A stretch of 64,000 nucleotides of DNA from Branchiostoma lanceolatum (Eukaryota; Chordata; Leptocardii; Amphioxiformes; Branchiostomatidae): the NCBI RefSeq assembly GCF_035083965.1, contig NC_089722.1, positions 39,541,958 through 39,605,957 of the forward strand. Reading direction: 5' to 3'. The translations under genes were made by a program, and so were the position numbers. This document shows positions 9,506-59,044 of this stretch, piece after piece. How positions within the stretch are numbered: the stretch's first letter is position 1; each line of letters begins with the position of its first letter. A model generated the notes under the pieces. The model did not search any database, was not told where the DNA came from, and worked only from the letters and a program-made list of their open reading frames with translations.

Positions 9506-9536
9506 GGGGAGTGCGGTGCTCAGCCGATCCGTTATT

Positions 9537-9591
9537 CAGTTTAATCTCTGATACAAAAATAAGTTGCAGTACTTCTGAGATTCGGTCCATC
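9537..9591 (+). pseudogene. Rearranged U2 3' fragment
   Basis: CAGTTTAATCTCTGATAC (U2 nt about 51-68) is joined to GCAGTACTTCTGAGATTCGG and TCCATC (U2 3' end). It lies on the plus strand, opposite to the neighbouring U2 5' end, so this unit has been inverted and deleted. Confidence 0.7.
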
Positions 9592-16975: not shown

Positions 16976-17465
16976 TTTAAGTATATATATAAACGATTTC
17001 TCGAGCATACTGTAACTTATCATGTTTATGGGCACTGTGGCCCCTCATATCCGGCTGATACAAAATCAAGAAAAAATTGACTGTCGGATCGGCTCAGCAT
17101 TGCAGTGCTTCATCCCACCCACCACTCTCGGTCCATCCCACACAAATCCAAGAACAAGACGCACACACATATATTTTTGGCTTTTGTACTTTTTTAGGTT
17201 TTTCTTTTTCTGACCTAGCCGACTAAGACAGGGCGGCTAGCCCTTCAACTACTACTAATCTACATATGCTCCAAACGGAGCCAACAACAAGTAAAAGCTT
17301 CAACGACACGATGGCGGCGCCTCCTAAAAAAGGAGAAAGCCACGCTTACCACATCACACGTGGCCCAAGAAAAACCATCGGCCCAGACCGTAAGAAAACC
17401 ACTAGGGCCAAGACGTGTGTCTTTTATGGGCAGGCGCCGGGGTTTGTGGCGGTGCAACACATCTG
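16976..17465 (-). mobile_element. Keno 3'-end relic outside U2
   Basis: The order on the minus strand is the ORF2 C-terminus (RLGPSGFLTVWADGFSWAT, about 17410-17350), the CCTAGCC-type stem block near 17215-17240, then the antisense-U2 block (about 17000-17140, with CGGATCGGCTCAGCATTGCA and CGGTCCATCCC). The 3' boundary is CTCTTTT as in other copies, but the flank is GGTCAGAA, not U2. It is either a rare off-target insertion or a copy moved by rearrangement. The 5' side is cut by the plus-strand LINE relic. Confidence 0.7.
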
Positions 17466-19647: not shown

Positions 19648-19785
19648 AGTATCACTTAGTTCTCATCTTGTTTACGCAGCCTTAAGGCGCTCATATCCAC
19701 TGATACACTCTAGATCAAATTGACTTTCACAGATCGACTCAGCATTGCTGTACTTCATCCCACCCACCACTCTCGGTCCATCCCC
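19648..19785 (-). other. Antisense-U2 block in Keno-1 3' UTR
   Basis: Read on the plus strand it follows U2 in order: AGTATC, then GTTCTCATCTTGTTTA, CTGATAC, TCTAGATCAAATTGA, AGATCGACTCAGCATTG, TACTTC and TCTCGGTCCATCCCC. The SL II loop and the Sm/SL III region are missing. It is therefore antisense to U2 in the Keno RNA. See the same block at 56744-56881. Confidence 0.85.
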
Positions 19786-25160: not shown

Positions 25161-25552
25161 TCTAAGTAGTCCCAAAACCCATTCGACTCCTGACTTTCGG
25201 ACGGCGGTGTTGTGGCCGTCCTGTCTGACAAAGAATATCCTCCTCTTTCTTATCTTTCTCCTCGAAGTGAGGGAGGGTAGCGGTGGGACCCGCTACCCCG
25301 ACCTCCTTGGGAAGGGATACGCCCTTGTCCTCCCCGTTTGGGGGCAGGGATGAAGAGCCATTTTCCACTTTCATCTTATCATTCTCATCCTCCTTACTAC
25401 TTTCTTCATTTTTGAGTTTTCCTTTTATGATTTTTTTTGGGTTTTCCAAATTCTGACCTAGCCGACTAAAACAGGGTGGCTAGGCCTACAACTACAGATA
25501 CTCTTTTGAAGTATATATCATACTGAATGACTTCAAGTATCGTACTTAGGTT
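25161..25552 (-). mobile_element. Keno scraps between Keno-1 and the CR1-type LINE
   Basis: 25161-25429 holds a charged open frame without a knuckle or other recognised domain. 25430-25492 is the Keno 3' UTR stem block (GACCTAGCCGACTAAAACAG, then GGTGGCTAGG). 25493-25499 is AGATACT, seven bases of U2. 25500-25552 is the extreme 3' end of another Keno (CTTTTGAAGTATATATCATA), cut off by the CR1-type insertion. So at least two Keno copies met here. Confidence 0.6.
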
Positions 25553-28500
25553 CTGTTTATTTGTTTATTAAAATTTACCACAGATGTGGAAGGGGTGAGA
25601 GAACAGGCATGATGCCTTTTCTAGCCCCCACCCACAGAAATATTTACATCAGGTATAACAAACATTTAAACCTATACAATTATACAATTACATAAGCAAT
25701 AGCTTAACGTACTCAGTCATATCGCACAATACTACACAACAACTTAGTTAAAACATGACTAAAATTAAACATATCGCACTTCATCCGAGAGGCACTTTCA
25801 CTAACTACCGCGGTCTTAACGCCAGACATGTAGCACATCTGCAGGCAGATGTCCATGTGCAGAGGTTATCAGTTACAAAATGCTCTCTAAACCTGTCTGA
25901 AAATGACGTGTTAAGCAGCCGTTTGAATGACAAGAGTTCTGACTGTTGTGAGGCCAACATCCCCATGTTTCTAACTGAGACACCGAGGTTGTTCCACTCG
26001 GTAACGAGGCGGGGCATGTAGGACGACGCAAATGTTGAAGTTTTACAACGAATTGGCATTAACATGTGAGACCGACTACCTCTTGTTGGTCTAGTGGAGA
26101 ATGATACATATTAGTGCATGTCTAGATCATAAACATTTGCCATGGCCTTCACAAACACCATTATGTCAGCAATCTCCCTTCTGTACGTAAGCGGTAACAT
26201 GTTGAGGAATGTTAGTCTAGCCTTGTAATCTAGTTCACGGGCATCTGCTTTAGCACTTATAATGAACTTAGTTGCCCGCCTCTGCACGCCCTCCAACAGT
26301 GGCATCATATTGCGAGACAGAGGTGACCAAACCTGACAACAATATACAAGCAATGATCTAACAAGTGTTATGTACAATGATTTACGTACTACAAGGCTGG
26401 ATTCATACCCGACCGTGCGTCTTATGAAACCAGTAATAGAATTGGCTCTCGACACAATATTCACAATATGGCTGTTCCACAGCAGGTCAGCCTGGGCAAG
26501 AACTCCCAGGTCATTCATACTATTGACTGTAGATAGGGCAATATCTGACATATAGTAGGTAAATGTTACTGGGCTCCTGGAACGAGTTAAACGGTGGACC
26601 ATGCACTTCGATGGATGGAAAGACATTCCCCATCGAAGGCTCCACTCATACATGGAGAAAATATCATTCTGTAGCTTATAACAATCACCAGGGTTACATA
26701 TCTCTCTATAGCACTTAGAGTCATCTGCGAACAGGGCTACAGTGGAGTTTTGGGCTGAGCAAGGTAACTCGTTAATGTACAATAAGAATAACATTGGCCC
26801 CAGAATTGAGCCCTGAGGAACTCCAGAGGTAACGGTGAGCCACTCTGATAGACTACCTTCAACTACCACACGCTGCCTTCGGTTAGCTAGGTACGAGTGA
26901 AACCATGACAGCAGTTTGCCGTTAAACCCATACATCTGAAGCTTATGAAGTAAAAGTGAGTGAGGAACAGAGTCGAAAGCCTTAGCGAAGTCAAGAAAAA
27001 GCATATCGACTTGTCCACCTCTATCAAGAACGGAGCCTACATAATGATATACCTCAAGCAGCTGAGTGGTAGTTGAGCGCCCCTTTACAAATCCATGTTG
27101 GAGATCGTGAATTGATTCGTGCAGAATTGGGAACACCATGTCGTACATGCACCTCTCCATGACCTTACTCACAATAGACAATAAAGAAACCGGCCGATAG
27201 TTTGACACGACTTGCTTATCCCCCTTTTTGTAAACAGGGGATACGTTAGCCTCTTTCCAGCACGAAGGAACCACGCCTATAGTGACTGATTTGTTGAACA
27301 GCAAGGTCAAAGGGAGTGCTAGTACCTGGGCACAATACTTTAACACAAATGGAGAAATATTATCAGGGCCTACAGCCTTACTTGTGTCTAGATTGACAAG
27401 CACATCTCGGACAGAGTCGACATCAAACAGAAGGTTACAAAGGCTATCAACAACTTTGATATCAATAGTAGGTTTCTGAACATTCTGGTCAGCTTGACTG
27501 AAAGTAGAGAAAAAGTACTTATTGAACAAAGTAGCCTTTTCGTCTGCAGATTTAGCAACAGAGTCCTCAAGATGCACAACAGGTGGTAAAGTTCGGGACT
27601 TAGACTTCGCACGAACAAAGGTCCAGAAGCGTTTCGGAGCCTCATGTAGGGAAGATGCTAAACTGTCCAAATAACTCGCATACTTGAGAGACAGAACGGC
27701 TTTCAGTTTGTTACGGAGCATTCGATATTTTGTCCAGTGTGATGGAGAGTCCGTCCGCTTGGCTTTGTGCCACGCCGTCCGCTTGCGATTTTGGATGTCA
27801 CGGACCTCGCCATCTATCCATGGTGGTGTATTGGAGTCCTTGAGTCTGCGACAGGGCACGAACTGGTCGACTGCTGACTGGATCGTAGACGACAAGGATT
27901 CCCAGGCCGAGTCAATGTCCTGGCACTGACCGACGGCCTCAGCTAGATGACTTGAGACCAGGTGCGCCCCAAGACCCTCCCAGTCGGCGCGACGATAGTT
28001 GTAGACCTTCCGAGAAATCCCGTGCTTAGGGTTCAGTTTGCAGTGAATGCCGAATTCCAAGATCGTGTGATCCGTGTCGAATTCGGTTGGAAGCTCCTTG
28101 ATGTCCGACACTCTATCGGGAATGTTGGTGAAGACTAAGTCCAAAATATTGCTGTTAGAGTTTGATGGAATCTTGTTGTGCTGGAGAAGGAAATGATCAT
28201 TTATTACTTCACAAAAGTCTGATTCCTTGCCACTTTCCACAACGACGCAGCTGGACCAGTCGACCCAAGGGAGATTGAAGTCCCCAAGTACACAGCACAT
28301 TTGGTACTCATGCTGAACTTTCTCTAGGACTGAAGCCAGGTTGACGGTAAATGCAGACAGGTCCCCCGAAGGCGGTCTGTAGCAGAGCACGGTGGCCAGC
28401 TTACCCAGACCGGGAGGCTGAATTTCGCAGACGAGAATTTCATCCTTGACCTCAAGGTCTGGCCTTCTCAAGCTGCACACAGATGAACGGACAGCCAGAA

Positions 28501-28984
28501 GAACGCCGCCACCAGTCTTGCCTGCGTGAACGTGGTGACGGTCTTTACGGTAAGTTACAAAGCCGGGTGGGATGACCTCTTGGTCACGGATATCGTCGTT
28601 AAGCCAAGTCTCCGTTATGGCCAGAACATCAGGACTGTTTAAGTGAATCAAGTTCTGAAGTTGTACCAACTTGTTTCTCTGAGGATTTACCGCTTTAACA
28701 CTTCTTGCATTGAGGTAAACGACTTTGAATAATGAGGAGGGACGTTTATTGACCAGGGATCGGGCGTTAGTCAAAAGCAAACTCGGCATACCTTTGGGCT
28801 TGATTAGCGGCTTGACGGTATCACGTTTCAGGGGCCGCAGGTGTTGTCGGCCTACATGTTGAGAATGTCGGAATATCGGCTTGTATTGTTCTGCCCAATG
28901 AGATTTGCATGTTAATGCATCAGCTTCCACTTGCATTACCGGCCTATTCCCAACAACTGTTGGGATCTTGCGTTGAAAGTTTTT
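25553..28984 (-). mobile_element. CR1-type (Jockey/CR1 group) LINE
   Basis: It encodes an endonuclease-RT polyprotein and ends with a short AATAAACAAATAAAC tail, which is cleaner than a long poly(A). It interrupts Keno 3' UTR sequence on its 3' side and the U2 3' half at nt 131 on its 5' side. The two flanks do not match each other, so insertion was accompanied by deletion or was followed by recombination. ORF1 is not visible, so it may be 5'-truncated. Confidence 0.85.
25805..28936 (-). CDS. CR1-type ORF2: APE endonuclease and reverse transcriptase
   Basis: The endonuclease part (about residues 70-310) shows VVYLNARSV, ITETWLND, GGGVLLAV, GDFNLPWVDW, LDLVFTN and DHTIL. The RT part shows SNYRPVSLLSIVSKVMERC, motif A LDFAKAFDSVPH, SGVPQGSILGPMLFLLYINE and the catalytic FADDSKC. 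One in-frame TAA at 26111-26113 follows YDLDMH; the frame then continues for about 100 codons with the usual C-terminal tail (MPRLVTEWNNL). The start was taken at the first Met of the open frame and may lie further in. Apart from the stop the enzyme looks whole, so the copy is young. Confidence 0.85.
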
Positions 28985-29081
28985 GCAAGCTCCTAGTCCA
29001 TGACCAAAGTCAAAAAATCAATTTAATCTAGATTCCCCGATGGGGAATGTATCAGAGATTAAACTGATAAGAACAGATACT
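28985..29081 (-). pseudogene. U2 snRNA nt 35-131, cut by the CR1-type LINE
   Basis: It begins at AGTATCTG (29081, reverse complement), directly after the Keno-2 3' end, and stops in the AGGAGCTTGC stem where the CR1-type sequence starts. The last about 57 nt of U2 are absent. Confidence 0.93.
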
Positions 29082-29112: not shown

Positions 29113-29241
29113 AGTATACTGGACTTATCAAGTCTATGGCACAAAGGCCTCTTATCCACTGATACAAATCTAGACAAATCAATTCCACGGATCGACTCAG
29201 CACTGCAGCACTTCGCCCACCCACCTCTCTCGGTCCATCCC
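29113..29241 (-). other. Antisense-U2 block in Keno-2 3' UTR
   Basis: Plus-strand reading: AGTATACTGGACTTATCAAG, CTGATACA, AATCTAGA, CGGATCGACTCAGC, ACTGCAGCACTTC and TCGGTCCATCCC, all in U2 order. In the stretch CGGATCG..CTTC the four differences from U2 are transitions that still let the antisense RNA pair with U2 RNA through G-U. Confidence 0.85.
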
Positions 29242-36537: not shown

Positions 36538-36686
36538 CTTTTGTGAAGTATTTGATTCGATTTTCACGAGTATACTGAACTTATCAAGTTTATGGCACAA
36601 AGGCCTCCTATCCACTGATACACATCTAGAAAATCAATTCCACGGATCGACTCAGCATTGCAGCACTTTCCCACCCACCACTCTCG
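36538..36686 (-). mobile_element. 149-bp mini-Keno, almost only the antisense-U2 block
   Basis: A severely 5'-truncated family-2 Keno. It holds the terminal hairpin half (CTTTTGTGAAGTATTTGATT) and the antisense-U2 block at 36569-36686, ending at CACTCTCG. No bases of U2 are lost or duplicated: nt 34 precedes it and nt 35 follows it. No coding sequence remains. Confidence 0.92.
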
Positions 36687-36720
36687 ACACTTGATCTTAG
36701 CCAAAAGGCCGAGAAGCGAT
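36687..36720 (-). pseudogene. U2 snRNA 5' part (nt 1-34)
   Basis: It ends at GTGT, the exact cleavage point used by the other copies. With the 3' half at 36384-36537 it would make a complete U2 if the 149-bp insert were absent. Confidence 0.95.
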
Positions 36721-37969: not shown

Positions 37970-38097
37970 AGTATACTGAACTTATCAAGTTTATGGCACA
38001 AAGGCCTCCTATCCACTGATACACATCTAGACAAATCAATTCCACGGATCGACTCAGCATTGCAGCACTTTCCCACCCACCACTCTCGGTCCATCCC
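37970..38097 (-). other. Antisense-U2 block in Keno-3 3' UTR
   Basis: Plus-strand reading AGTATACTGAACTTATCAAG, CTGATACA, CATCTAGA, CGGATCGACTCAGCATTGCA and TCGGTCCATCCC, in U2 order. The differences from U2 in the CGGATCG..CACTT part are compatible with G-U pairing. Confidence 0.85.
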
Positions 38098-38285
38098 TCA
38101 CAAATCCAAAACAGACGCACACACATATATTTTTGGCTTTTGTATTTTATCATTTTTTTGGGTTTTTCTATTTTTGACCTAGCCAACTAAGTCAGGGCGG
38201 CTAGGCCTGCAACTACTACATGAAAAAAGCTCCAAACGGAGTCAACAAGAAATAATAACTTCAACGACACAATGGCGGCGCCTCC

Positions 38286-44121: not shown

Positions 44122-44140
44122 CTTAGCCAAAAGGCCGAGC

Positions 44141-44176: not shown

Positions 44177-45240
44177 AAACCGGTTGAGCTTGACCGCTAG
44201 CCCCCCTCCCCCGGGAACGAGCCAAGTTCACGTGGCGAGCTATGCATCGCAAACAGCTTCAAGCTTGAACATAAAGCAATTAGTGCCCGCACACCTGGCG
44301 CGCCTTCTCTCCTTCATAATCTCTTCAATTTGGTTGACAAACGGAAGCGCTCTACTTTATGTGGACGAACCACGGACTACACCCAAAAACACACATCACG
44401 CGCTCCTGGCTCGTCCTGGCTCTTCCTGGCTCTGCCTAATTGGTGCAAAGAAGCGACTACGTCACACCAACGCAGAAAACGGGCTCCTTAGGGTTCAAAG
44501 CCGAGCCAAGGGCGGGTAGACAAGACAACAAGGCAATGTTGTTGTTCGCGAACAGCGTTGCCATTGTTGTTCGCCAGGAGGCGCGCGCCCGCGGTTCCCT
44601 TACATCATTCATCTTCACAGGGCGGGCGGCGTCTGCTTTTCCCCTTAACTTCGATGCCTGTGGTGGATTTTTCAAGTCCGCCGGACCTTGTCGATTCGGC
44701 CTGAAGGTCCGCAAAGGGGAGAGGAAGGTCGCATGCAGCCAGCCCACTAAATTTACGGAAGGAATTAAAAGGAGCGAGCGAGAAAGCAGCAGCGGTGGGC
44801 GAGGCGGCTAGCTGTGCGTGTGTACGTATCTCTCATACGTTGATACGAGGCGCGCGGGCGCTTAGATTCCCGATTCCTACGTTTAACATCGAATTACGTC
44901 CACATCGCACTGCTTTCGTCAGAATCGAACCACAGACAGACGTCCTGGAATTTTCCACTGCCTCTGCGTGCTCTCCCGACCTCTCCCGGCTCTTGGTGGC
45001 GCTGTTGCTTGCTCCAGTTCCAGTCTGAAAGTAGAAGAAAGATAAAATGCGAAAATTAAACATGTACAGTAGAGTTGGGGGATGTGAGAGCTATAAACGC
45101 AGTAAGGTTCAGTATATATACTCGTAACACGTATGCACATACTTCAAACGAGTACAGACTGCTGATAAATCCACATTGCTGGATTGCTGGGCCAGTTTGG
45201 TGGTTTGTGTATGTGTGCAACTTATTTTGGATTTGTAAGG
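44177..45240 (-). repeat. U2 spacer copy C (1,064 bp)
   Basis: Same length and landmarks as spacer copies A and B. Confidence 0.95.
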
Positions 45241-45394
45241 GGATGGACCGAATCTCAGAAGTACTGCAATACTGAGCCGATCCGCGGTCAGGACGGAGCA
45301 AGCTCCTAGTCCATGACCAAAGTCAAAAAATCAATTTAATCTAGATTCCCCGATGGGGAATGTATCAGAGATTAAACTGATAAGAACAGATACT
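45241..45394 (-). pseudogene. U2 snRNA 3' half (nt 35-188)
   Basis: Begins AGTATCTG at 45394. Its first 18 nt (45377-45394) are duplicated at 46184-46201, giving a clear 18-bp target duplication around the Keno fragment. Confidence 0.95.
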
Positions 45395-46183
45395 CTTTTG
45401 TGAAGTATTTGATTCGATTTTCACGAGTATACTGAACTTATCAAGTTTATGGCACAAAGGCCTCCTATCCACTGATACACATCTAGACAAATCAATTCCA
45501 CGGATCGACTCAGCATTGCAGCACTTTCCCACCCACCACTCTCGGTCCATCCCACACAAACCCAAAAAAGACGCACACACATATATATTTTTGGCTTTTG
45601 TATTTTATAATTTTTTTGGGTTTTCCTATTTTTGACCTAGCCAACTATGTCAGGGCGGCTAGGCCTGCAACTACCACATGTAATAAACACCTCAACCGAG
45701 GTCAAAAAAACAGTCTAAAGCTTTATAGACACTTGGGAAATATCAACGTCAGCCCAGGAATACCCATCTGCCCAGGTAGTGAGAAACCCATCTGGGCCTA
45801 GGCGATGGTATTCAAACTCAAGTCTCTCCCTAAGAGATTTCTGCAGACGCGCAATCAATTCCTGCCCAGAAAACTTCATCTTCTCAAAGATAACCTGGCA
45901 CCTGGTCTTCCATAATAGAGCCCTGGTGATGGCCGCCAGGGTCTCCAAAACAAGCCTCGTTCTTGTCGGCATATTCTGGAAGACCAGACCAAAAACGGCA
46001 AACGCACCCGACAGACGAAACTGTGGGAAGATACGCCTATATACAAGGCCTTCAACCCACTCCCAAACCTCCGCCACCACCGCACACTCCCAGAAGAGAT
46101 GTGTCACACTTTCCACCAAGTTGCAACCATTTCTGGGACAGGTGTCCGAATCAATATAGCCCCTCCACGATCGCAACTTCTGC
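45395..46183 (-). mobile_element. 789-bp 5'-truncated Keno fragment with 18-bp target duplication
   Basis: It carries the last about 155 codons of an ORF2 (46182-45715) and a complete 3' UTR with the antisense-U2 block and the CCTAGCC stem. The flanking duplication CTGATAAGAACAGATACT (45377-45394 and 46184-46201) is U2 nt 52-35 in reverse complement, the cleanest in the window. The ORF2 remnant is a different family from Keno-1 to -5 and is not identical to Keno-6. Confidence 0.93.
45715..46182 (-). pseudogene. ORF2 C-terminal fragment
   Basis: Reads QKLRSWRGYIDSDTCPRNGC, then the zinc motif with HLFWECAVVAEVWEWVEGL, and ends LGPDGFLTTWADGYSWADVD like other Keno ORF2 termini. The endonuclease and RT are absent because of 5' truncation. 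The frame itself is undamaged, so the insertion is young. Confidence 0.88.
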
Positions 46184-46235
46184 CTGATAAGAACAGATAC
46201 TACACTTGATCTTAGCCAAAAGGCCGAGAAGCGAT
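46184..46235 (-). pseudogene. U2 snRNA 5' part (nt 1-52)
   Basis: The longest U2 5' part in the window. It ends CAG, includes the whole branch-point region and one copy of the 18-bp target duplication. Confidence 0.95.
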
Positions 46236-47299
46236 AAACCGGTTGAGCTTGACCGCTAGCCCCCCTCCCCCGGGAACGAGCCAAGTTCACGTGGCGAGCT
46301 ATGCATCGCAAACAGCTTCAAGCTTGAACATAAAGCAATTAGTGCCCGCACACCTGGCGCGCCTTCTCTCCTTCATAATCTCTTCAATTTGGTTGACAAA
46401 CGGAAGCGCTCTACTTTATGTGGACGAACCACGGACTACACCCAAAAACACACATCACGCGCTCCTGGCTCGTCCTGGCTCTTCCTGGCTCTGCCTAATT
46501 GGTGCAAAGAAGCGACTACGTCACACCAACGCAGAAAACGGGCTCCTTAGGGTTCAAAGCCGAGCCAAGGGCGGGTAGACAAGACAACAAGGCAATGTTG
46601 TTGTTCGCGAACAGCGTTGCCATTGTTGTTCGCCAGGAGGCGCGCGCCCGCGGTTCCCTTACATCATTCATCTTCACAGGGCGGGCGGCGTCTGCTTTTC
46701 CCCTTAACTTCGATGCCTGTGGTGGATTTTTCAAGTCCGCCGGACCTTGTCGATTCGGCCTGAAGGTCCGCAAAGGGGAGAGGAAGGTCGCATGCAGCCA
46801 GCCCACTAAATTTACGGAAGGAATTAAAAGGAGCGAGCGAGAAAGCAGCAGCGGTGGGCGAGGCGGCTAGCTGTGCGTGTGTACGTATCTCTCATACGTT
46901 GATACGAGGCGCGCGGGCGCTTAGATTCCCGATTCCTACGTTTAACATCGAATTACGTCCACATCGCACTGCTTTCGTCAGAATCGAACCACAGACAGAC
47001 GTCCTGGAATTTTCCACTGCCTCTGCGTGCTCTCCCGACCTCTCCCGGCTCTTGGTGGCGCTGTTGCTTGCTCCAGTTCCAGTCTGAAAGTAGAAGAAAG
47101 ATAAAATGCGAAAATTAAACATGTACAGTAGAGTTGGGGGATGTGAGAGCTATAAACGCAGTAAGGTTCAGTATATATACTCGTAACACGTATGCACATA
47201 CTTCAAACGAGTACAGACTGCTGATAAATCCACATTGCTGGATTGCTGGGCCAGTTTGGTGGTTTGTGTATGTGTGCAACTTATTTTGGATTTGTAAGG
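46236..47299 (-). repeat. U2 spacer copy D (1,064 bp)
   Basis: Same length and landmarks as A-C. It is also the left outer arm of the large palindrome, matched by spacer copy E at 57066-58129 in reverse. Confidence 0.95.
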
Positions 47300-47453: not shown

Positions 47454-50400
47454 CTTTTGAAGTATTTATACTGAATCACTTCAAGTATCACTTAGTTCTC
47501 ATCTTGTTTACGCAGCCTTAAGGCGCTCATATCCACTGATACACTCTAGATCAAATTGACTTTCACAGATCGGCTCAGCATTGCTGTACTTCATCCCACC
47601 CACCACTCTCGGTCCATCCCCAGACACTATTTAATATTTTTGGGTTTTGTATTTTATAATTTTTTTTTTTTGGGGTTTTCTGTTTTTGACCTAACCGACT
47701 AAGACAGGGCGGCTAGGCCTGCAACTACTACATGAAAAAGTGCTCCAGAGGGAGCCAACAACAAGCCAAAACTTCAACAACACGATGGCAGCACCTCCTT
47801 AAAAGGAGAAAGCCACGCTTGACACATCAACCGTGGCCCAAGAAAACCCATCGGCCCAGACCGTGAGGAAACCACTAGGTCCAAGACGAGCAAACTCAAA
47901 ACGGAGTCGCTCCTCCAAACGGTTTCTCACCGACGTCACAAGTTCAGGGCCCGAAAATCGTTTGCCCTCAAACACACATTCACACCTCGTCCGCCAGAGG
48001 AAAGATCTCATGATCGCCGCCAGGGCCTGCAACACACGCCTGACTCTGGACGACAACCCCCCTGGCACCAATCCCCACAGCGCAAAGGACCTAGTGATCG
48101 AGAAACCCGGGCTGATTTTCATCGCCACCAGGTTCTCCAACCACATCCATGCCTCAGAAATCACTGGACACTCCCAGAACAAATGCTGAACACTTTCCTC
48201 CCCCTGACAAAGGTGTCTGGGGCACGTACTACTATCTACAAATCCCTTCCAAGAGTGGAGCTTCTTTCTCGTTTTCAGAGAGTTGTGAGCAGCATGCCAG
48301 CTGGTCATCCTCTCCCACTTGGTGAGCAGAGGATTGTGAATGGCCTTCCAGACGGAAGACCAATCCACACTCCCATCTCCACTTTCACAACGTGGCACAA
48401 TACTCTCCGCCTCCAATAAAATAGCGTAGAGGGCCGCCACCGAATTTGACTTCCACTCAATATCTACATCCCTCAAAGAGATCAACATCCTCTTGACCTC
48501 GGTGTAGTGCGGAGGGCTGTCCAAAGAGTGGGGAGCCAAGTTACTCCATGACTCAGCGTCTATTCTTCGCAAGGCGAGCCCAATCCAGTAGAGAGCAAAT
48601 CTAGAGGCTGGCAACTGTGGCTTGACCAGAGCTTTCCTCACCACTTTAAGGAAGAGGGCTTTGGCCTTGAGTGGTACAGAGACCAACCCCAACCCTCCTT
48701 TGTCCTTAGGCAAAAGAAGAGTTCGCCTAGCGACCATCTCTGTCTTGCCATCCCAGAGAAATGAATAGATTTCTCTCTCAATCTTAACTTTCACAGACTT
48801 AGGCAAGGGGTATACCGGAGCCGTGTACCACAAAGTGGCAGCCGCCAAACAATTCACAATCAAGGCTTTGCCAAAAAGGGTCAGCCTCCGCGTCTCCCAC
48901 TGGGTGAGCTTTGCCTTAAACTTCACAAATCGTTGCATCCAAGCAATCTCCGCCAACTGAATGTTGCCAATAGGGCTGCCTAAAATAGTTAGGTAAGATG
49001 ATACCCACTGTTTTATAGGGTATGGGCTATCCACCCTGCCCTTCCATCTACCTAACCACAAAGCCTCCGTTTTCCCCAAATTCAATTTGGAACCGGTACC
49101 AGCCTCAAAACGCTTGATGGTGGAAAATGTCCGATCGATGGACGGCTGGTCCGACAAGACACAAGTGTTGTCATCTGCATATTGCACCATTTTAACCTCC
49201 TGGTTCAACCCAGGGACCTTCACTCCCCTGATGTAAGGGTCTGCACGAATTGCCGCAGCCAGCGGCTCAATACATAATACATATAGCAGTGGAGAAAGGG
49301 GGCAGCCTTGCCTAACTCCCCTCTCCACTGCTATTGACTCTGACAAAGTACCATTCACGAGGACTTTACTGGATACCTCGCAGTACAAAGCCGCGATCAT
49401 TCTTTTAAAATTCGGCCCAAAGCCAAGCTTGTCTAAAACATTGGCCATAAAATTGTGATCAACTCTGTCAAACGCCTTCTCCTGGTCCAGTGCAATAAGA
49501 ACACCAGAAGAATGCGAACTATTGACATACTCTACAATGTCCCTTAACAGGCAGACACTATCTTCAATTGACCGGCCTGGAATACCACAGGATTGATCAA
49601 TGTGAACTACCGACCCAATGACATTCTTCAGCCGGTTGGCCAAGGCCTTGGACAGAATTTTGTAGTCCACATTCAGTAACGAAATCGGCCTTTTATTCGA
49701 AGGGTTCAGTGGATCCCCCTTTTTCTCCAAAAGAGAGATGACGCCTTCTCTTTGGGACACAGACAGCTGTCCTACATCCAATCCCTCATTGAGGACTGCC
49801 AGAAAGTCTGGCCCTATGATCTCCCAAAACTTGATGTAGAATTCTTTTGGGAGACCATCCGACCCCGGAGATTTTCCATTCTCCATACCTTTCACAGCCG
49901 CTTCCAATTCATCCAAAGTGAGATCTCCATCCAAGCTCTCAACACATTCATCAGGTAACGACTCAGAGAGCTTAGACAGAAAATATTCTTGCTCCACTTT
50001 GTCAATATGACCAGCCTTATACAAGTCTGCATAAAACTGCTTAAAAACGGCAAGTATCTGCGGGGTGGTGCTCACCACGTCCCCATTGCCGTCTCTAACT
50101 TCCTGGATGACCCGTTTCTGGCCCTTGCGGCGTTCAGCCTGGAAGAAAAACCTAGTCGGTTTTTCATCCTCTTCGAAAGCTTTTACTTTTGCCCGCAACC
50201 TCTGACCCTTAAGTCTGTCTAAGATCAGGTTGTTTAGGTTTTCCTTCTCCTTCTCATACTCTTCTCTTGTTGCAGGACTTCGGTCTCCTATGTTAAGTCG
50301 AGACCGGAGTGAATCCACCTTCCTTTCCATATCCTTCTGAATCAAGGAGTCCGCCTGAGCTCTCAGCTTGGAGTATTTGATAACCAAATCTTTACAATAA

Positions 50401-51171: not shown

Positions 51172-51470
51172 GGAGTAACTCTGTGAAATTGGTGTGGAAT
51201 TTTTTCCCTACCTGGAGAATATTTCTGAGTGTTTTAGAACCGTAAGAAACGTGTTTTCTAACCCTCACCCCCGTTTTCATAGTGCTATCGCCCGCCCGCC
51301 TGTCTCGTTAGCGAGCGAAGGCACGCGGGCTGTGCGGTCGTTGACCTAGATCTCCGGGTATCAGGTTATTTTCGGCCCTACAGCGGAGGGTGTGGATGGG
51401 GGTTTGGCGGTAAAGGTTCTGAAGGTGTTTGTTGCGACGGAAGGTCCTTCCATAGGACTTTTGTTGCGAA

Positions 51471-53066
51471 ATGCCGCCAGTTCCCTACAGGAAGATGCCC
51501 CCGGCTCCTTCTGGTTTCGTTAGGAAGAGGAGTGTAGGGATAACGTTTTTAGATAAGAAAGTAGAGGGTGACTTGGCGAATGTTGTAAACCTGCTGGGAA
51601 AGAACGGGATCCCTGTCACTGAGGTGCAGGGAATTCAAAACAAGGGGAAGGGCCGATGTGAGATTACTTTTAAATCACAGACGGCCTTCCACAAGGCTTC
51701 GCCCGCACTGTGTGCAGATGGTAGTGTAGAGGTTGACACGTACGGGGCTGGTATCACCGTGGTGACTGCCCTGGACATCCCTCTAGAACTAGACGATAAC
51801 CACGTGAGACATCGTCTGAGGGAGTATGGAGACGTACTTGATAGCAAGTACGTCAGTTATGCCAGTAAAGGGTTCCCGGAGCTTTTGTCCGGTACGCGCC
51901 AGTACCGGATGAAGCTCAAGAGGCACGTTCCCAACACCATGAGGTTGGGAAATGAGATTATCTCATTTCGATACGGCGGCCAACCGAGGTTGTGCCACAA
52001 GTGTGGGAAGGAGGGGCATCTCGTCGCGGAGTGCGACGAGGAAAAGTGCTCCAAATGTATGAGTCTTGGCCACCTCGCCAAAGACTGCACTTCGGCCATT
52101 AAGTGCAATTGGTGTGGGGAGGAGGGCCACGCAGGCCGTACTTGTAATTTGACTTTCCCTGAACCGTGTGCCCTGACAACAACCTGGGCGAAAACCCTGA
52201 AGCCGGCGGTGGTGGAGGCCACGCCTTCCGGGCCACAGCCTGGTGGGTCTGGTGCCGGTGGTAACGAAACGGCTAGTGGGTCGGGTGAAGGCAAGATCGG
52301 TGATGCGGGTTCCGTCGAGAAAGACTCGTTGTCGGAGGAGCCTTCTGTTAAAGGGGGCAAGCCTTCCGAGCCACAGGCTGGTGGGTCGGGGAAAGATGGT
52401 GATAGGAAGAGTGATTCATCGACTCCCGCTATCCCGGCTGAGTCCAAGTCCAGGGAGATACCGGATTCCCCCGATATCTCCATGACTAAACCTCCAGTAG
52501 GCCCAGGGGTCCCCTTGCATAAGGGAGAGGACTCAGGAGCCTCTCCTCCAAAGGGAGATGGTTCCCAGAAAAGTAAAATCTCCTCGGGAGATGAGAAGGA
52601 GGACTTCCCTGAGGAAGATGATAAGTCAAATCTGTCCGGAAATGATATGTGGGAGCGGTATTCTCAATACCCTCCGAGCGGGGCCAACAAGCTTCGGACT
52701 CAGTTGACGGACTCTGATGAGAACAAGTCTGTGTCTGGTGAGGGTGACGGTGAGGCCAGTATGCACCTAAACTTGGTCGAGTCACTGACCAATGACTTGG
52801 TTATGGATTTTAAAGAGCACGAAGAGTCGGACGCAGATAGTTCTGTGTCTGTGTGTTCCTCATTCCAACCGGGATCTGAGTCTGACTCGGACACTCAGAA
52901 GGGTTGGCAGACACAGGGAGGGAATAAAAAGAGGAAGATGAAAGAGAAATCAGGCTTTGGCTCCCAGATTGACCATTACCCTTCCGGGGAGGTCCCTAAG
53001 CCGAAGCCCCAGAGAAAAAGTGCGAGGTCAGGGAAATTGGGAAAGACAAAAGGAAATAAGTCCTAG
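51471..53066 (+). CDS. Keno-5 ORF1, zinc-knuckle RNA-binding protein (531 aa)
   Basis: The N-terminal domain (1-170) includes GTRQYRMKLKR. The knuckles are CHKCGKEGHLVAEC (175-188), CSKCMSLGHLAKDC (193-206) and CNWCGEEGHAGRTC (212-225). A long acidic Ser/Gly-rich tail contains YSQYPPSGANKL and LVMDFKEHEES, as in Keno-1, and ends in a basic segment with GFGSQIDHY. The first about 220 residues are Keno-2/-3 type and the remainder Keno-1 type. The ORF2 ATG follows after 32 bp, longer than the 5-6 bp in other copies. Confidence 0.94.
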   Translation: MPPVPYRKMPPAPSGFVRKRSVGITFLDKKVEGDLANVVNLLGKNGIPVTEVQGIQNKGKGRCEITFKSQTAFHKASPALCADGSVEVDTYGAGITVVTALDIPLELDDNHVRHRLREYGDVLDSKYVSYASKGFPELLSGTRQYRMKLKRHVPNTMRLGNEIISFRYGGQPRLCHKCGKEGHLVAECDEEKCSKCMSLGHLAKDCTSAIKCNWCGEEGHAGRTCNLTFPEPCALTTTWAKTLKPAVVEATPSGPQPGGSGAGGNETASGSGEGKIGDAGSVEKDSLSEEPSVKGGKPSEPQAGGSGKDGDRKSDSSTPAIPAESKSREIPDSPDISMTKPPVGPGVPLHKGEDSGASPPKGDGSQKSKISSGDEKEDFPEEDDKSNLSGNDMWERYSQYPPSGANKLRTQLTDSDENKSVSGEGDGEASMHLNLVESLTNDLVMDFKEHEESDADSSVSVCSSFQPGSESDSDTQKGWQTQGGNKKRKMKEKSGFGSQIDHYPSGEVPKPKPQRKSARSGKLGKTKGNKS

Positions 53067-53098
53067 TTTGGACTTTTTTCCCTTCCCCAGTTGATAAC

Positions 53099-56000
53099 AT
53101 GGTCTCTACTTTAAATGTTTTGTCTCTAAACGTTAATGGGATGAAGGACCGGGGTAAGAGAGACATGGTGTTCGATTTTTGTCGGTCCAACGGTGCAGAT
53201 GTGGCATGCCTGCAGGAGTGCCACATCTCCACGATTGCTGACAAGGGTGCCTGGTCTCGCCAGTGGGGACACAAGGCAATCTGGTCCCTAGGCACGAACT
53301 CCGCCAGAGGTGTTGGCATTTTATTATCCTCTAGGTGGACTTTCGTGTCGTCAAAATATGATACTGATGGTAGGGTTGTCTCTGTTCTGCTGGAGGTAGA
53401 TGGCGTGCAGTACAATGTGTGTAACATCTATGCTCCCTCAGTTCCGGCGGAGCGGGTCACCTTTTTTGATAGTGTTCATCAATATTTGTACCCCAATGCG
53501 GTGCTAGTTTTAGCGGGGGATTTTAATTGTGTTTTGGATCCTGACTTGGACAGAATATCGGAATCCATATTCACTCCTGGGAATCGCACTCAGGATGTGG
53601 TGCATTTGCGTAGTTTGTGCGCTGACTTGGATTTGGTGGATGCCTGGCGAATTGAACACCCCGCCCAGGTAGATTTCACTTGGAGGTCCAAGTCAAATAA
53701 AACCAGATCCAGGCTGGATAGAATTTATGTCCAGGAGGGCACTATTGTTTCCTCGACTATTAAGTCCTGTTCGTGTTCTGACCACGATGGCATTGTGTCA
53801 TCCATAGATCCTGTCCCTTCTGTTCAACGGGGTCGGGGTCTATGGAAGTGCAATGTCAAGGTTTTGTCCGATCCTCGTTTAGAGCAGGAGTTGCGTGAGA
53901 TGTATCCTATATGGAGGAAGAGTTTAGAGGAAGGGCAATCGGCGAGGGAGTGGTGGGATACCGTTAAATCTTATTGTAAAGATTTGGTTATCAAATACTC
54001 CAAGCTGAGAGCTCAGGCGGACTCCTTGATTCAGAAGGATATGGAAAGGAAGGTGGATTCACTCCGGTCTCGACTTAACATAGGAGACCGAAGTCCTGCA
54101 ACAAGAGAAGAGTATGAGAAGGAGAAGGAAAACCTAAACAACCTGATCTTAGACAGACTTAAGGGTCAGAGGTTGCGGGCAAAAGTAAAAGCTTTCGAAG
54201 AGGATGAAAAACCGACTAGGTTTTTCTTCCAGGCTGAACGCCGCAAGGGCCAGAAACGGGTCATCCAGGAAGTTAGAGACGGCAATGGGGACGTGGTGAG
54301 CACCACCCCGCAGATACTTGCCGTTTTTAAGCAGTTTTATGCAGACTTGTATAAGGCTGGTCATATTGACAAAGTGGAGCAAGAATATTTTCTGTCTAAG
54401 CTCTCTGAGTCGTTACCTGATGAATGTGTTGAGAGCTTGGATGGAGATCTCACTTTGGATGAATTGGAAGCGGCTGTGAAAGGTATGGAGAATGGAAAAT
54501 CTCCGGGGTCGGATGGTCTCCCAAAAGAATTCTACATCAAGTTTTGGGAGATCATAGGGCCAGACTTTCTGGCAGTCCTCAATGAGGGATTGGATGTAGG
54601 ACAGCTGTCTGTGTCCCAAAGAGAAGGCGTCATCTCTCTTTTGGAGAAAAAGGGGGATCCACTGAACCCTTCGAATAAAAGGCCGATTTCGTTACTGAAT
54701 GTGGACTACAAAATTCTGTCCAAGGCCTTGGCCAACCGGCTGAAGAATGTCATTGGGTCGGTAGTTCACATTGATCAATCCTGTGGTATTCCAGGCCGGT
54801 CAATTGAAGATAGTGTCTGCCTGTTAAGGGACATTGTAGAGTATGTCAATAGTTCGCATTCTTCTGGTGTTCTTATTGCACTGGACCAGGAGAAGGCGTT
54901 TGACAGAGTTGATCACAATTTTATGGCCAATGTTTTAGACAAGCTTGGCTTTGGGCCGAATTTTAAAAGGATGATCGCGGCTTTGTACTGCGAGGTATCC
55001 AGTAAAGTCCTCGTGAATGGTACTTTGTCAGAGTCAATAGCAGTGGAGAGGGGAGTTAGGCAAGGCTGCCCCCTTTCTCCACTGCTATATGTATTATGTA
55101 TTGAGCCGCTGGCTGCGGCAATTCGTGCAGACCCTTACATCAGGGGAGTGAAGGTCCCTGGGTTGAACCAGGAGGTTAAAATGGTGCAATATGCAGATGA
55201 CAACACTTGTGTCTTGTCGGACCAGCCGTCCATCGATCGGACATTTTCCACCATCAAGCGTTTTGAGGCTGGTACCGGTTCCAAATTGAATTTGGGGAAA
55301 ACGGAGGCTTTGTGGTTAGGTAGATGGAAGGGCAGGGTGGATAGCCCATACCCTATAAAACAGTGGGTATCATCTTACCTAACTATTTTAGGCAGCCCTA
55401 TTGGCAACATTCAGTTGGCGGAGATTGCTTGGATGCAACGATTTGTGAAGTTTAAGGCAAAGCTCACCCAGTGGGAGACGCGGAGGCTGACCCTTTTTGG
55501 CAAAGCCTTGATTGTGAATTGTTTGGCGGCTGCCACTTTGTGGTACACGGCTCCGGTATACCCCTTGCCTAAGTCTGTGAAAGTTAAGATTGAGAGAGAA
55601 ATCTATTCATTTCTCTGGGATGGCAAGACAGAGATGGTCGCTAGGCGAACTCTTCTTTTGCCTAAGGACAAAGGAGGGTTGGGGTTGGTCTCTGTACCAC
55701 TCAAGGCCAAAGCCCTCTTCCTTAAAGTGGTGAGGAAAGCTCTGGTCAAGCCACAGTTGCCAGCCTCTAGATTTGCTCTCTACTGGATTGGGCTCGCCTT
55801 GCGAAGAATAGACGCTGAGTCATGGAGTAACTTGGCTCCCCACTCTTTGGACAGCCCTCCGCACTACACCGAGGTCAAGAGGATGTTGATCTCTTTGAGG
55901 GATGTAGATATTGAGTGGAAGTCAAATTCGGTGGCGGCCCTCTATGCTATTTTATTGGAGGCGGAGAGTATTGTGCCACGTTGTGAAAGTGGAGATGGGA

Positions 56001-56572
56001 GTGTGGATTGGTCTTCCGTCTGGAAGGCCATTCACAATCCTCTGCTCACCAAGTGGGAGAGGATGACCAGCTGGCATGCTGCTCACAACTCTCTGAAAAC
56101 TAGAAAGAAGCTCCACTCTTGGAAGGGATTTGTAGATAGTAGTTCGTGCCCCAGACACCTTTGTCAGGGGGAGGAAAGTGTTCAGCATTTGTTCTGGGAG
56201 TGTCCAGTGATTTCTGAGGCATGGATGTGGTTGGAGAACCTGGTGGCGATGAAAATCAGCCCGGGTTTCTCGATCACTAGGTCCTTTGCGCTGTGGGGAT
56301 TGGTGCCGGGGGGGTTGTCGTCCAGGGTCAGGCGTGTGTTGCAGGCCCTGGCGGCGATCATGAGATCTTTCCTCTGGCGGACGAGGTGTGAATGTGTGTT
56401 TGAGGGCAAACGATTTTCGGGCCCTGAACTTGTGACGTCGGTGAGAAACCGTTTGGAGGAGAGACTCCGTTTTGAGTTTGCTCGTCTTGGACCTAGTGGT
56501 TTCCTCACGGTCTGGGCCGATGGGTTTTCTTGGGCCACGGTTGATGTGTCAAGCGTGGCTTTCTCCTTTTAA
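53099..56572 (+). CDS. Keno-5 ORF2: APE endonuclease + reverse transcriptase (1157 aa)
   Basis: Endonuclease residues: N11 and N13 (LNVNG), E40 (CLQECH), D141 and N143 (GDFN), D228 and H229 (SDHD). RT residues: D596 in DQEKAFDRVDH, the QGCPLSPLLYVL block and Y698-A-D700-D701. The C-terminal zinc motif is C1017-x4-C1022-x7-H1030-x4-C1035. All catalytic positions are present and the frame is open. It would nick U2 genes between nt 34 and 35 and copy the element RNA onto the free end. It may still be functional, but the 5'-cut leader probably impairs the copy as an autonomous element. Confidence 0.95.
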   Translation: MVSTLNVLSLNVNGMKDRGKRDMVFDFCRSNGADVACLQECHISTIADKGAWSRQWGHKAIWSLGTNSARGVGILLSSRWTFVSSKYDTDGRVVSVLLEVDGVQYNVCNIYAPSVPAERVTFFDSVHQYLYPNAVLVLAGDFNCVLDPDLDRISESIFTPGNRTQDVVHLRSLCADLDLVDAWRIEHPAQVDFTWRSKSNKTRSRLDRIYVQEGTIVSSTIKSCSCSDHDGIVSSIDPVPSVQRGRGLWKCNVKVLSDPRLEQELREMYPIWRKSLEEGQSAREWWDTVKSYCKDLVIKYSKLRAQADSLIQKDMERKVDSLRSRLNIGDRSPATREEYEKEKENLNNLILDRLKGQRLRAKVKAFEEDEKPTRFFFQAERRKGQKRVIQEVRDGNGDVVSTTPQILAVFKQFYADLYKAGHIDKVEQEYFLSKLSESLPDECVESLDGDLTLDELEAAVKGMENGKSPGSDGLPKEFYIKFWEIIGPDFLAVLNEGLDVGQLSVSQREGVISLLEKKGDPLNPSNKRPISLLNVDYKILSKALANRLKNVIGSVVHIDQSCGIPGRSIEDSVCLLRDIVEYVNSSHSSGVLIALDQEKAFDRVDHNFMANVLDKLGFGPNFKRMIAALYCEVSSKVLVNGTLSESIAVERGVRQGCPLSPLLYVLCIEPLAAAIRADPYIRGVKVPGLNQEVKMVQYADDNTCVLSDQPSIDRTFSTIKRFEAGTGSKLNLGKTEALWLGRWKGRVDSPYPIKQWVSSYLTILGSPIGNIQLAEIAWMQRFVKFKAKLTQWETRRLTLFGKALIVNCLAAATLWYTAPVYPLPKSVKVKIEREIYSFLWDGKTEMVARRTLLLPKDKGGLGLVSVPLKAKALFLKVVRKALVKPQLPASRFALYWIGLALRRIDAESWSNLAPHSLDSPPHYTEVKRMLISLRDVDIEWKSNSVAALYAILLEAESIVPRCESGDGSVDWSSVWKAIHNPLLTKWERMTSWHAAHNSLKTRKKLHSWKGFVDSSSCPRHLCQGEESVQHLFWECPVISEAWMWLENLVAMKISPGFSITRSFALWGLVPGGLSSRVRRVLQALAAIMRSFLWRTRCECVFEGKRFSGPELVTSVRNRLEERLRFEFARLGPSGFLTVWADGFSWATVDVSSVAFSF

Positions 56573-56743: not shown

Positions 56744-56881
56744 GGGGATGGACCGAGAGTGGTGGGTGGGATGAAGTGCAGCAATGCTGAGCCGATCTGT
56801 GAAAGTCAATTTGATCTAGAGTGTATCAGTGGATATGAGCGCCTTAAGGCTGCGTAAACAAGATGAGAACTAAGTGATACT
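56744..56881 (+). other. Antisense-U2 block of the Keno-5 3' UTR
   Basis: It begins GGGGATGGACCGA, the exact reverse complement of the U2 3' end, then GAAGTGCAGCAATGCTGAGC and CGATC (22 of 25 positions). It continues as AATTTGATCTAGA, TGTATCAG and TAAACAAGATGAGAAC, and ends GATACT, the reverse complement of U2 nt 40-35. Order and orientation follow U2 throughout. The SL II loop and the Sm/SL III region are deleted. Together with 56912-57066 it makes an inverted repeat around a 30-nt loop. Confidence 0.88.
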
Positions 56882-56911
56882 TGAAGTGATTCAGTATAAA
56901 TACTTCAAAAG

Positions 56912-57066
56912 AGTATCTGTTCTTATCAGTTTAATCTCTGATACATTCCCCATCGGGGAATCTAGATTAAATTGATTTTTTGACTTTGGTCATGGACTAG
57001 GAGCTTGCTCCGTCCTGACCGCGGATCGGCTCAGTATTGCAGTACTTCTGAGATTCGGTCCATCCC
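56912..57066 (+). pseudogene. U2 snRNA 3' half (nt 35-188), plus strand
   Basis: Starts AGTATCTGTTCTTATCAG. It has the stem CCCCATCGGGG, Sm-type ATTTTTTG (56975-56982), the AGGAGCTTGCTCC stem and the terminal stem ending CGGTCCATCCCC. The length fits a 188-nt U2. Confidence 0.95.
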
Positions 57067-58129
57067 CTTACAAATCCAAAATAAGTTGCACACATACACA
57101 AACCACCAAACTGGCCCAGCAATCCAGCAATGTGGATTTATCAGCAGTCTGTACTCGTTTGAAGTATGTGCATACGTGTTACGAGTATATATACTGAACC
57201 TTACTGCGTTTATAGCTCTCACATCCCCCAACTCTACTGTACATGTTTAATTTTCGCATTTTATCTTTCTTCTACTTTCAGACTGGAACTGGAGCAAGCA
57301 ACAGCGCCACCAAGAGCCGGGAGAGGTCGGGAGAGCACGCAGAGGCAGTGGAAAATTCCAGGACGTCTGTCTGTGGTTCGATTCTGACGAAAGCAGTGCG
57401 ATGTGGACGTAATTCGATGTTAAACGTAGGAATCGGGAATCTAAGCGCCCGCGCGCCTCGTATCAACGTATGAGAGATACGTACACACGCACAGCTAGCC
57501 GCCTCGCCCACCGCTGCTGCTTTCTCGCTCGCTCCTTTTAATTCCTTCCGTAAATTTAGTGGGCTGGCTGCATGCGACCTTCCTCTCCCCTTTGCGGACC
57601 TTCAGGCCGAATCGACAAGGTCCGGCGGACTTGAAAAATCCACCACAGGCATCGAAGTTAAGGGGAAAAGCAGACGCCGCCCGCCCTGTGAAGATGAATG
57701 ATGTAAGGGAACCGCGGGCGCGCGCCTCCTGGCGAACAACAATGGCAACGCTGTTCGCGAACAACAACATTGCCTTGTTGTCTTGTCTACCCGCCCTTGG
57801 CTCGGCTTTGAACCCTAAGGAGCCCGTTTTCTGCGTTGGTGTGACGTAGTCGCTTCTTTGCACCAATTAGGCAGAGCCAGGAAGAGCCAGGACGAGCCAG
57901 GAGCGCGTGATGTGTGTTTTTGGGTGTAGTCCGTGGTTCGTCCACATAAAGTAGAGCGCTTCCGTTTGTCAACCAAATTGAAGAGATTATGAAGGAGAGA
58001 AGGCGCGCCAGGTGTGCGGGCACTAATTGCTTTATGTTCAAGCTTGAAGCTGTTTGCGATGCATAGCTCGCCACGTGAACTTGGCTCGTTCCCGGGGGAG
58101 GGGGGCTAGCGGTCAAGCTCAACCGGTTT
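57066..58129 (+). repeat. U2 spacer copy E (1,064 bp)
   Basis: Plus-strand version of spacer copies A-D, same length. The first bases after U2 are TTACAAATCCAAAATAAG; I see no clear snRNA 3' box there. The last 65 bp hold the promoter of the next U2 copy. Confidence 0.95.
58066..58084 (+). promoter_or_regulatory. Candidate PSE of the U2 promoter
   Basis: GCTCGCCACGTGAACTTGG lies at -64 to -46 from the U2 start, where Pol II snRNA genes carry the proximal sequence element. It resembles the CTCACCGCGACTT part of the vertebrate U2 element. No TATA box is present, as expected for U2. The same sequence precedes every U2 5' end adjoining an intact spacer in the window. Identification is by position and partial likeness only. 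Confidence 0.4.
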
Positions 58130-58176
58130 ATCGCTTCTCGGCCTTTTGGCTAAGATCAAGTGTAGTATCTGTTCTT
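58130..58176 (+). pseudogene. U2 snRNA 5' part (nt 1-47)
   Basis: ATCGCTTCTCGGCCTTTTGG through GTAGTATCTGTTCTT. The branch-point recognition GTAGTA is at 58162-58167. It is followed by a second U2 piece, nt 15-29 (TTTTGGCTAAGATCA, 58177-58191), then GGGGGACACG of Keno-6. Confidence 0.95.
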
Positions 58177-59044
58177 TTTTGGCTAAGATCAGGGGGACAC
58201 GTTCAGACGTGCCTTGCCCCCGCTCCGCTTCGAGTCCTCCTTTCAGCCCACTGAGGGCGGTTAGAGTACTCGTCGAGGGCGATAAGTCCAGCGACTTGGT
58301 TGCGGGTTGTCCCCGGATCATTTGGGTGGTTTTAGTTTTTCTGTACCTTATATTTTTCTCAAGTTACGGCTGTTTTTCTAGCACCGTACCTCTCTTACGG
58401 GAGACGGGCGGTGGAAGCACACCGTTTCCCCCGCAGGACGGGGGTGGCCAGCTCCGGTCCATCTTTGGGGGCTGTTTTCTCCGGTTTGCGTAGAGCTACT
58501 GACTTCCCCTTCCGTCAGGTTGGGGAGCAGGTTTGTCTTGCTACTTGTATGGTATTAGTTTTGATTTTGTCTGTTGTTTTACGTGTTATTTGAGGCTATT
58601 CTGTACCCGCACCCCTCCGTCAAAGCGGCGGACGGAGTGGTACAGTCCACCTCAGACCGCGTGGTTCTGAGAACAAAGAGACTGTTTTCGTCTGTTTTCG
58701 ACTCAGCGTTGCTCCGGCACGGTTGGCGCCAACCGGGAGTAACTCTGGGAAATTGGTATAGAATTTTTTCCCTGCCTGGGGAATATTTTTGAGTGTTGTT
58801 AAGCCCCCAGAAACGTGTTTTCTAACCCTCACCCCCGTATACGTAGTGCTATCGCCCACCCAAGAATTTGGGGCACGGCGGGCATCGGGTTGCGGGCTAT
58901 TTTGGGCCTTCTCCGCGGAGGGTCTGAATGGGGGTTTGGCGGTAGTGGCTCTGAAGGGGTTTAGGCACGCGGGTTGCGGGTTCTCTTTGGACCTTTCCCG
59001 GAGGCCGTGAAAGGGGTTTTGTCGAACCCTTATTCCCCTTCAAC

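Follow-up and report, generated by a model that had tools for sequence, protein, structure and literature searches.

Why should a retrotransposon that inserts into U2 snRNA genes carry, in its own 3' untranslated region (UTR), an antisense copy of the very gene that it interrupts, and is the copy kept for its pairing with U2? This question is raised by a stretch of 64,000 nucleotides of the Branchiostoma lanceolatum genome (hereafter the window), which is a lancelet U2 array whose U2 genes hold Keno elements in sense direction. We will consider the elements and their antisense block, the probable origin and spread of this block, and the signs of selection on it, weighing along the way the alternatives to a role in pairing.

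The Keno elements, which we take to belong to the R1 clade and which were reportedly named in a 2004 paper, split the U2 genes in a regular fashion. Their 3' junction is with nt 35 of U2 in every case seen (six loci whose U2 half is complete, and Keno-2), and the 5' junction lies at nt 34 to 52: in the five that we looked at, it follows nt 34 (mini-copy), 36 (Keno-3), 38 (Keno-2), 47 (Keno-6) and 52 (45395 fragment). Since this position differs among loci, the target duplication varies, and it amounts to 13 bp for Keno-6. In Keno-5, a first stop-to-stop frame (ORF1, 51456-53066, + strand) carries a CCHC zinc knuckle, and a second (ORF2, 53060-56572, + strand) an AP-like endonuclease, a reverse transcriptase and a zf-RVT domain. 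All three ORF2 frames that we tested (Keno-3, Keno-5 and Keno-6) give hits above the cut-off for the Pfam families Exo_endo_phos, RVT_1 and zf-RVT, and the Pfam hits of the Keno ORF2 frames comprise this AP-like endonuclease instead of a restriction-like (PD-D/ExK) one. Among the best 120 of the 857 protein matches to the Keno-5 ORF2, the two top ones are from B. belcheri, and a B. lanceolatum protein is 100% identical over 23% of the length.

The 5' ends were compared in Keno-2, Keno-3 and Keno-6. Two of these three full-length ends are directly preceded by an extra sense piece of U2, namely nt 8-25 (44122-44139, - strand) before the first bases of Keno-3 and nt 15-29 (58177-58191, + strand) before Keno-6, the next element after Keno-5; at Keno-2, only six bases match U2 (ATCGCT). 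The pieces before Keno-3 and Keno-6 suggest that the templates begin within U2, and that they perhaps run through U2 at the other end too. The first bases of the 5' UTR itself form a compact inverted stretch rich in GC (GGGGGACACGTTCAGACGTGCCTTGCCCCC; 58192-58221 on the + strand), which matches the 5' ends of Keno-2 and Keno-3, and no HDV-like ribozyme is found at the 5' end of Keno-6 among Rfam hits up to E 10 (58100-58700). Two other features of the window can be mentioned here: a different LINE-like frame of 968 aa from stop to stop (26111-29017, - strand), which comes after the truncated U2 half downstream of Keno-2, and a tandem array of an 18-base repeat (GGCGTTGTTCGATCCGTT) at 1858-2166.

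The antisense block of Keno-5 occupies 56744-56881 (+ strand) and is complementary to U2 from nt 190 down to nt 35, except for gaps where stem-loops III and IIb lie. It is followed by the Keno 3' terminus (56882-56911), which contains, by inspection, a small hairpin (TTGAAG...CTTCAA), and then by the downstream half of the split U2 gene, nt 35-190 of the snRNA (56912-57067). A preliminary description of this DNA had reported a collinear antisense block facing U2 across a loop of about 30 nt, and such is indeed the layout; its account of the block as the reverse complement of U2 nt 188 to 35 is right as to strand and collinearity, but it has to be amended for the two stem-loop gaps and for the U2 3' flank that is added in four copies. 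The same description had listed the block in other Keno copies, and blastn does find antisense U2 pieces there, which brings to nine the Keno 3' ends that have them. All eight others are on the - strand. Keno-1 (19648-19785) and Keno-4 (47484-47621) carry a block that we call type A, and Keno-2 (29113-29241), Keno-3 (37970-38129) and a 5'-truncated mini-copy that starts inside the block (36539-36687) carry a type B. In Keno-3, positions 38098-38129 are antisense to the U2 3' flank (about +1 to +33). Antisense flank is also joined to the block in the 45395 fragment (45426-45587, to about +35), which has the ORF2 end of another family, and in two older relics, one near 11700 (11667-11858, of which about 11804-11858 is flank, to +58) and one near 17050 (17004-17167, to about +27). 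A tenth Keno 3' end, in a rearranged copy at 25200-25400 (- strand), has retained the 3' terminus, of type A, and not the block: the terminus is followed by the first U2 bases from nt 35, and then by 3' UTR sequence again.

The resemblance to antisense U2 is not a matter of chance. With a gap-tolerant alignment applied to eight 3' UTRs (those of Keno-1 to Keno-5, the 45395 fragment and the two relics, the mini-copy being left out), z is 3.6 for relic 11700 and 5.7-7.8 for the others, and none of 500 dinucleotide shuffles reaches the score of any of them; this control had been named in the preliminary description as one that could refute the block, and it did not do so. Sense U2, aligned to the same eight 3' UTRs, gives scores within the range of 200 shuffles. 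In Keno-5, the matching pieces correspond to U2 nt 190-176, 171-143, 102-86, 71-57, 56-52, 51-42 and 41-35, so that the complements of stem-loops III and IIb are lacking, each under a long alignment gap. For stem-loop III (nt 111-143), the gap spans nt 103-142 in type A and nt 101-141 in type B, and it thus exceeds the stem-loop by as much as about 10 nt on one side, while the letters AAAGTC of type A permit it to be placed at nt 111-143 alone; for stem-loop IIb (nt 69-83), it spans about nt 70-85. The block also has inserts, one of about 14 nt (the GAGAGTGGTGGGTGGG region) and a hairpin. As MAFFT misplaces the long gaps when the blocks are aligned together with U2, we relied on gap-tolerant pairwise alignments and on columns curated by hand.

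The flank tells us something about where the block came from. In relic 11700, the antisense U2 3' flank extends to +58 and is identical at 33 of 37 positions over +58 to +22, and it is matched by none of 1000 shuffles in a gap-tolerant test and by none of 2000 in a second test. Flank reaching about +27 to +35 is equalled by 6 of 2000 shuffles in relic 17050 and by 23 of 2000 in each of Keno-3 and the 45395 fragment, the gap-tolerant test giving significance for relic 11700 only; it is not significant in Keno-2 (134 of 2000) and is absent in Keno-1, Keno-4 and Keno-5 (1967, 1990 and 1817 of 2000). Its presence in four of eight copies indicates that the source was a U2 gene or a read-through transcript, and the mature snRNA, which we had considered as a source, is ruled out by it. 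A second capture of antisense U2 can be seen at 9522-9591 (- strand), where a relic Keno ORF2 is joined to perfect antisense pieces and then to sense U2: reading from 9591 to 9522, we find nt 187-160 (28/28), flank +23 to +11 (13/13) and nt 68-49 (20/20), and the sequence continues with sense U2 nt 145-154 (10/10) and then with U2 flank that starts at about +158 and matches at 81.5%. The order of the pieces is not that of U2, and at one joint two of them share five bases (TGCAA), which points to template switching on the target strand, for the second time.

Once acquired, the block did not remain within one lineage. The ORF2 proteins of Keno-5 and Keno-3 are 72.5% identical and 56% of their 4-fold sites differ, yet the two elements agree at 94% over the final 300 nt of ORF2, at 85% over the UTR that precedes the block and at 73% over the block itself. 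Between the 45395 fragment and Keno-3, identity is only 56% over the final 300 nt of ORF2, against 97% in the block, and the block of relic 11700 is 85% like that of Keno-5 and 69% like that of Keno-3. From these contrasts, we conclude that 3' ends pass between Keno families. The wider surroundings of the fragment (45228-46260, - strand) have the same character, with a distinct ORF2 C-terminus and yet a 3' UTR that is nearly that of Keno-3. The preliminary description had argued for a function from the retention of the block across several families; the block does occur in several families, but the argument is weakened because this retention is partly due to exchange. Exchange and the second capture at 9522-9591 are both what one would expect if the block were a fossil, produced by a single template switch and drifting ever since as a passenger of a 3' UTR module that owes its spread to recognition of its other parts by the enzyme. 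We regard this explanation as unlikely, although it survives better than the other rivals, and the way in which the block has changed is the first thing to be set against it.

When the changes are polarised with antisense U2 as the ancestor, over 90 curated columns, all copies together show 15 transitions that keep G-U pairing with U2 possible (A>G, C>T), 4 that do not and 7 transversions. The live copies account for 12:2:4 of these and the changes seen only in relics for 3:2:3. The controls, taken from the same copies and polarised by majority where the block was polarised by U2, give 21:23:45 in the UTR before the block (12:14:19 in six live copies, without the relics) and 26:39:49 at the end of ORF2. 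The G-U-compatible share in live copies is thus 12 of 18 in the block and 12 of 45 in the adjoining UTR (Fisher P 0.0045); ambiguous columns beside gaps had been removed before the count, and one retained column that allows a second placement was tried both ways, the alternative giving P 0.0084. With all copies, 15 of 26 compares with 21 of 89 in the UTR (P 0.0016) and with 26 of 114 at the ORF2 end (P 0.0014), and with transitions only, P is 0.028 and 0.0038, respectively. Binomial models give values from below 0.0001 to 0.1, depending on the assumed transition bias and base frequencies (0.04 to 0.14 with transitions only).

The excess of G-U-compatible changes that the preliminary description proposed to look for was thus found among the copies of the window, against both controls, and it is this unlikeness of the live block to its neighbourhood that speaks against drift. 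On the side of drift, the whole block polarised by majority, inserts included, shows no such excess (16:18:44). The difference between live copies and relic-only changes (12 of 18 vs 3 of 8) is not significant (P 0.22), the independent lineages are few, with two live types of block, and some of the C>T changes are also compatible with pairing to the inserted G-rich motif. Few parts of the block have changed as little as the segment pairing with the 3' end of U2, whose 11 columns show a single change, found in a relic. Editing of the hairpin by ADAR was considered as a cause and rejected, since it predicts A>G and not C>T, and all five changed C in the curated columns are C>T; looser pairwise alignments add some C>G beside gaps.

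The predicted folds lead in the same direction for the live copies. The block of Keno-5 and its U2 tail fold in cis at -157 kcal/mol with 96 pairs between the arms (89-96 over the eight copies), and the block pairs with 12-13 of the 13 nt at the very end of U2 and with 11-12 of the bases in nt 35-47. In all eight copies, the bases of the two stem-loops that lack a complement pair mostly among themselves (26 of 33 for III and 10 of 15 for IIb). Drift was simulated with an equal number of changes in the same columns for six of the eight copies, Keno-4 and the 45395 fragment being omitted as near-duplicates. A fold as strong was obtained in 0 of 150 simulations for Keno-5 and Keno-1 and in 0-1 of 150 for Keno-3 and Keno-2, which exceeds what drift would leave. 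The relics, in turn, match drift, as the fossil explanation would have it: 13-15 of 150 for relic 11700 and 28 of 150 for relic 17050. These P values are sensitive to the assumed transition rate: with the positions of the changes fixed and a kappa of 2.2 with 4-fold frequencies, they become 2, 3, 7 and 4 of 300 (Keno-5, Keno-1, Keno-3 and Keno-2) and 51 and 140 of 300 (relics 11700 and 17050), and with a kappa of 4, 14, 11, 34 and 11 of 300, and 108 and 216 of 300. The method does not create the signal, since 60 neutral trial sequences give no low z (mean +0.53, lowest -1.73), and the null is conservative. Functional pairing with U2, as first proposed, is therefore supported by the substitution pattern and by the fold energies against drift, and no longer to the same extent by retention across families. 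On the basis of these comparisons, selection on the pairing between the block and U2 appears likely.

A signal in the block could also concern its own structure, the inverted U2 piece having become a structured RNA tag for the Keno reverse transcriptase, with its pairing to U2 incidental. The inserted hairpin does covary (columns 109-123; at two pairs, 4 and 3 of the 8 sequences carry changes on both sides), a 27-nt motif, half of it non-U2, is nearly invariant, and an R2 structure, as far as the accessible part of the report goes, shows, of the 3' UTR RNA, a resolved core of some 40 nt on the protein (PMC10499050). Against this, the consensus structure of the block by itself is weak (-15.5 kcal/mol, 25 pairs), and the U2-derived CTGAG has been retained although its stem-loop IV partner has been replaced. 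We find this explanation improbable.

It is more doubtful still that the block acts in trans, by binding nascent U2 RNA or the top strand of a U2 gene, either to target the particle or to open the DNA. The substitution evidence would apply to it equally, and the duplex of the Keno-5 block with U2 RNA is predicted at -121.7 kcal/mol, whereas 200 mononucleotide shuffles reach -97.7 at best. However, the block ends at the insertion site, as predicted by a capture in cis, and the cis fold would compete with any partner in trans on read-through RNA. The preliminary description favoured the top DNA strand as a partner, in the manner of a guide; we found nothing that specifically supports it, and the only evidence that discriminates, namely the G-U changes and the absent complements of the stem-loops, would fit pairing between RNAs better than pairing with DNA. 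A last variant, in which the block and the U2 tail would together reproduce the target duplex as RNA and guide themselves by four-way strand exchange with a U2 gene (the tail going to the bottom strand and the block to the top strand, so that the target is opened, and the degenerate, G-U-rich RNA hairpin yielding easily to a perfect DNA match), strikes us as very improbable.

We therefore come back to pairing in cis. The explanation that we prefer to a guide role, to a tag with its own fold and to plain drift, on the strength of the modelled folds and of the U2 pieces at the 5' ends, is a putative clamping of the U2 tail: the block would be an inverted capture of the target, kept for its pairing with U2 RNA, which would probably take place in cis within read-through transcripts. 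We hold it tentatively, as something a little short of an even chance. During target-primed synthesis, the reverse transcriptase may have switched to the U2 bottom strand that was priming the synthesis, or folded back along it, skipping two stable hairpins (stem-loops IIb and III), and the inverted piece would then have joined the 3' UTR and spread among the families through the exchange of 3' ends. If Keno is transcribed through U2, as we infer, the 3' end of its RNA is the U2 half, with which the block could form about 90 pairs, in an interrupted helix that would clamp this end, stem-loops IIb and III remaining as side hairpins. Purifying selection would maintain the pairing while tolerating G-U. 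The putative benefits are that the tail would be kept from assembly as a U2 snRNP, that the 3' end would be protected, and that nt 35-47 would stay poised to exchange with the nicked strand of the target. One point counts against the argument from the stem-loops, since the loss of their complements could also be a scar of polymerase skipping and the stem-loop III gap is inexact.

Relatives were sought in several places. Two B. belcheri gene models, P0006 and P0121, contain a segment that matches the antisense U2 flank and 3' end (0 of 1000 shuffled peptides) and that adjoins Keno ORF2. It is repeated seven times in P0121, and this sevenfold repeat leads us to see in it a genuine U2 array whose opposite strand was caught in a gene model, and to discard both models as evidence for the block. 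In viral contigs, neither a protein scan nor two U2 patterns turned up a relative. In the literature, none of the matches listed describes, by its title or the start of its abstract, an antisense copy of the target within the 3' UTR of a LINE, the search covering few subscription papers, and we know of no antisense counterpart to priming by sense homology. A captured antisense copy of the target whose pairing is selected would, if true, add a new RNA part to target-primed integration and bear on how target-specific LINEs find and hold one gene family; if drift is right, the block nevertheless documents, and cleanly, that templates were switched on the target strand and that LINE families exchanged their 3' ends.

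It remains to place the block among known systems. Judging from the accessible part of its description, Keno targets U2, has an AP-like endonuclease and a reverse transcriptase and counts the lancelet among its named hosts (PMC4640811), and the elements of the window are like it in target and in both enzymes. That part does not mention an antisense copy of the target in the 3' UTR, and antisense, complement, hairpin and palindrom each occur zero times in the main text (PMC4640811). The same source reports that the U2 sequence flanking Utopia on the 3' side is identical to that of Keno; Utopia also targets U2, but with a restriction-like endonuclease, unlike the AP-like endonuclease of the Keno elements of the window. 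In SART1/R1 and in R2, the 3' end of the element RNA is able to base-pair, when synthesis is primed, with the target strand that has been nicked (PMC7265360; PMC10499050), and in the portions of these papers that we could draw on, the contribution of the RNA is sense homology at its 3' end. The RNA of R1/R2 and SART1 thus carries sense target sequence, which pairs with the primer strand, whereas the Keno block is an extra copy in antisense, of opposite polarity, which would pair with the sense tail or with the top strand.
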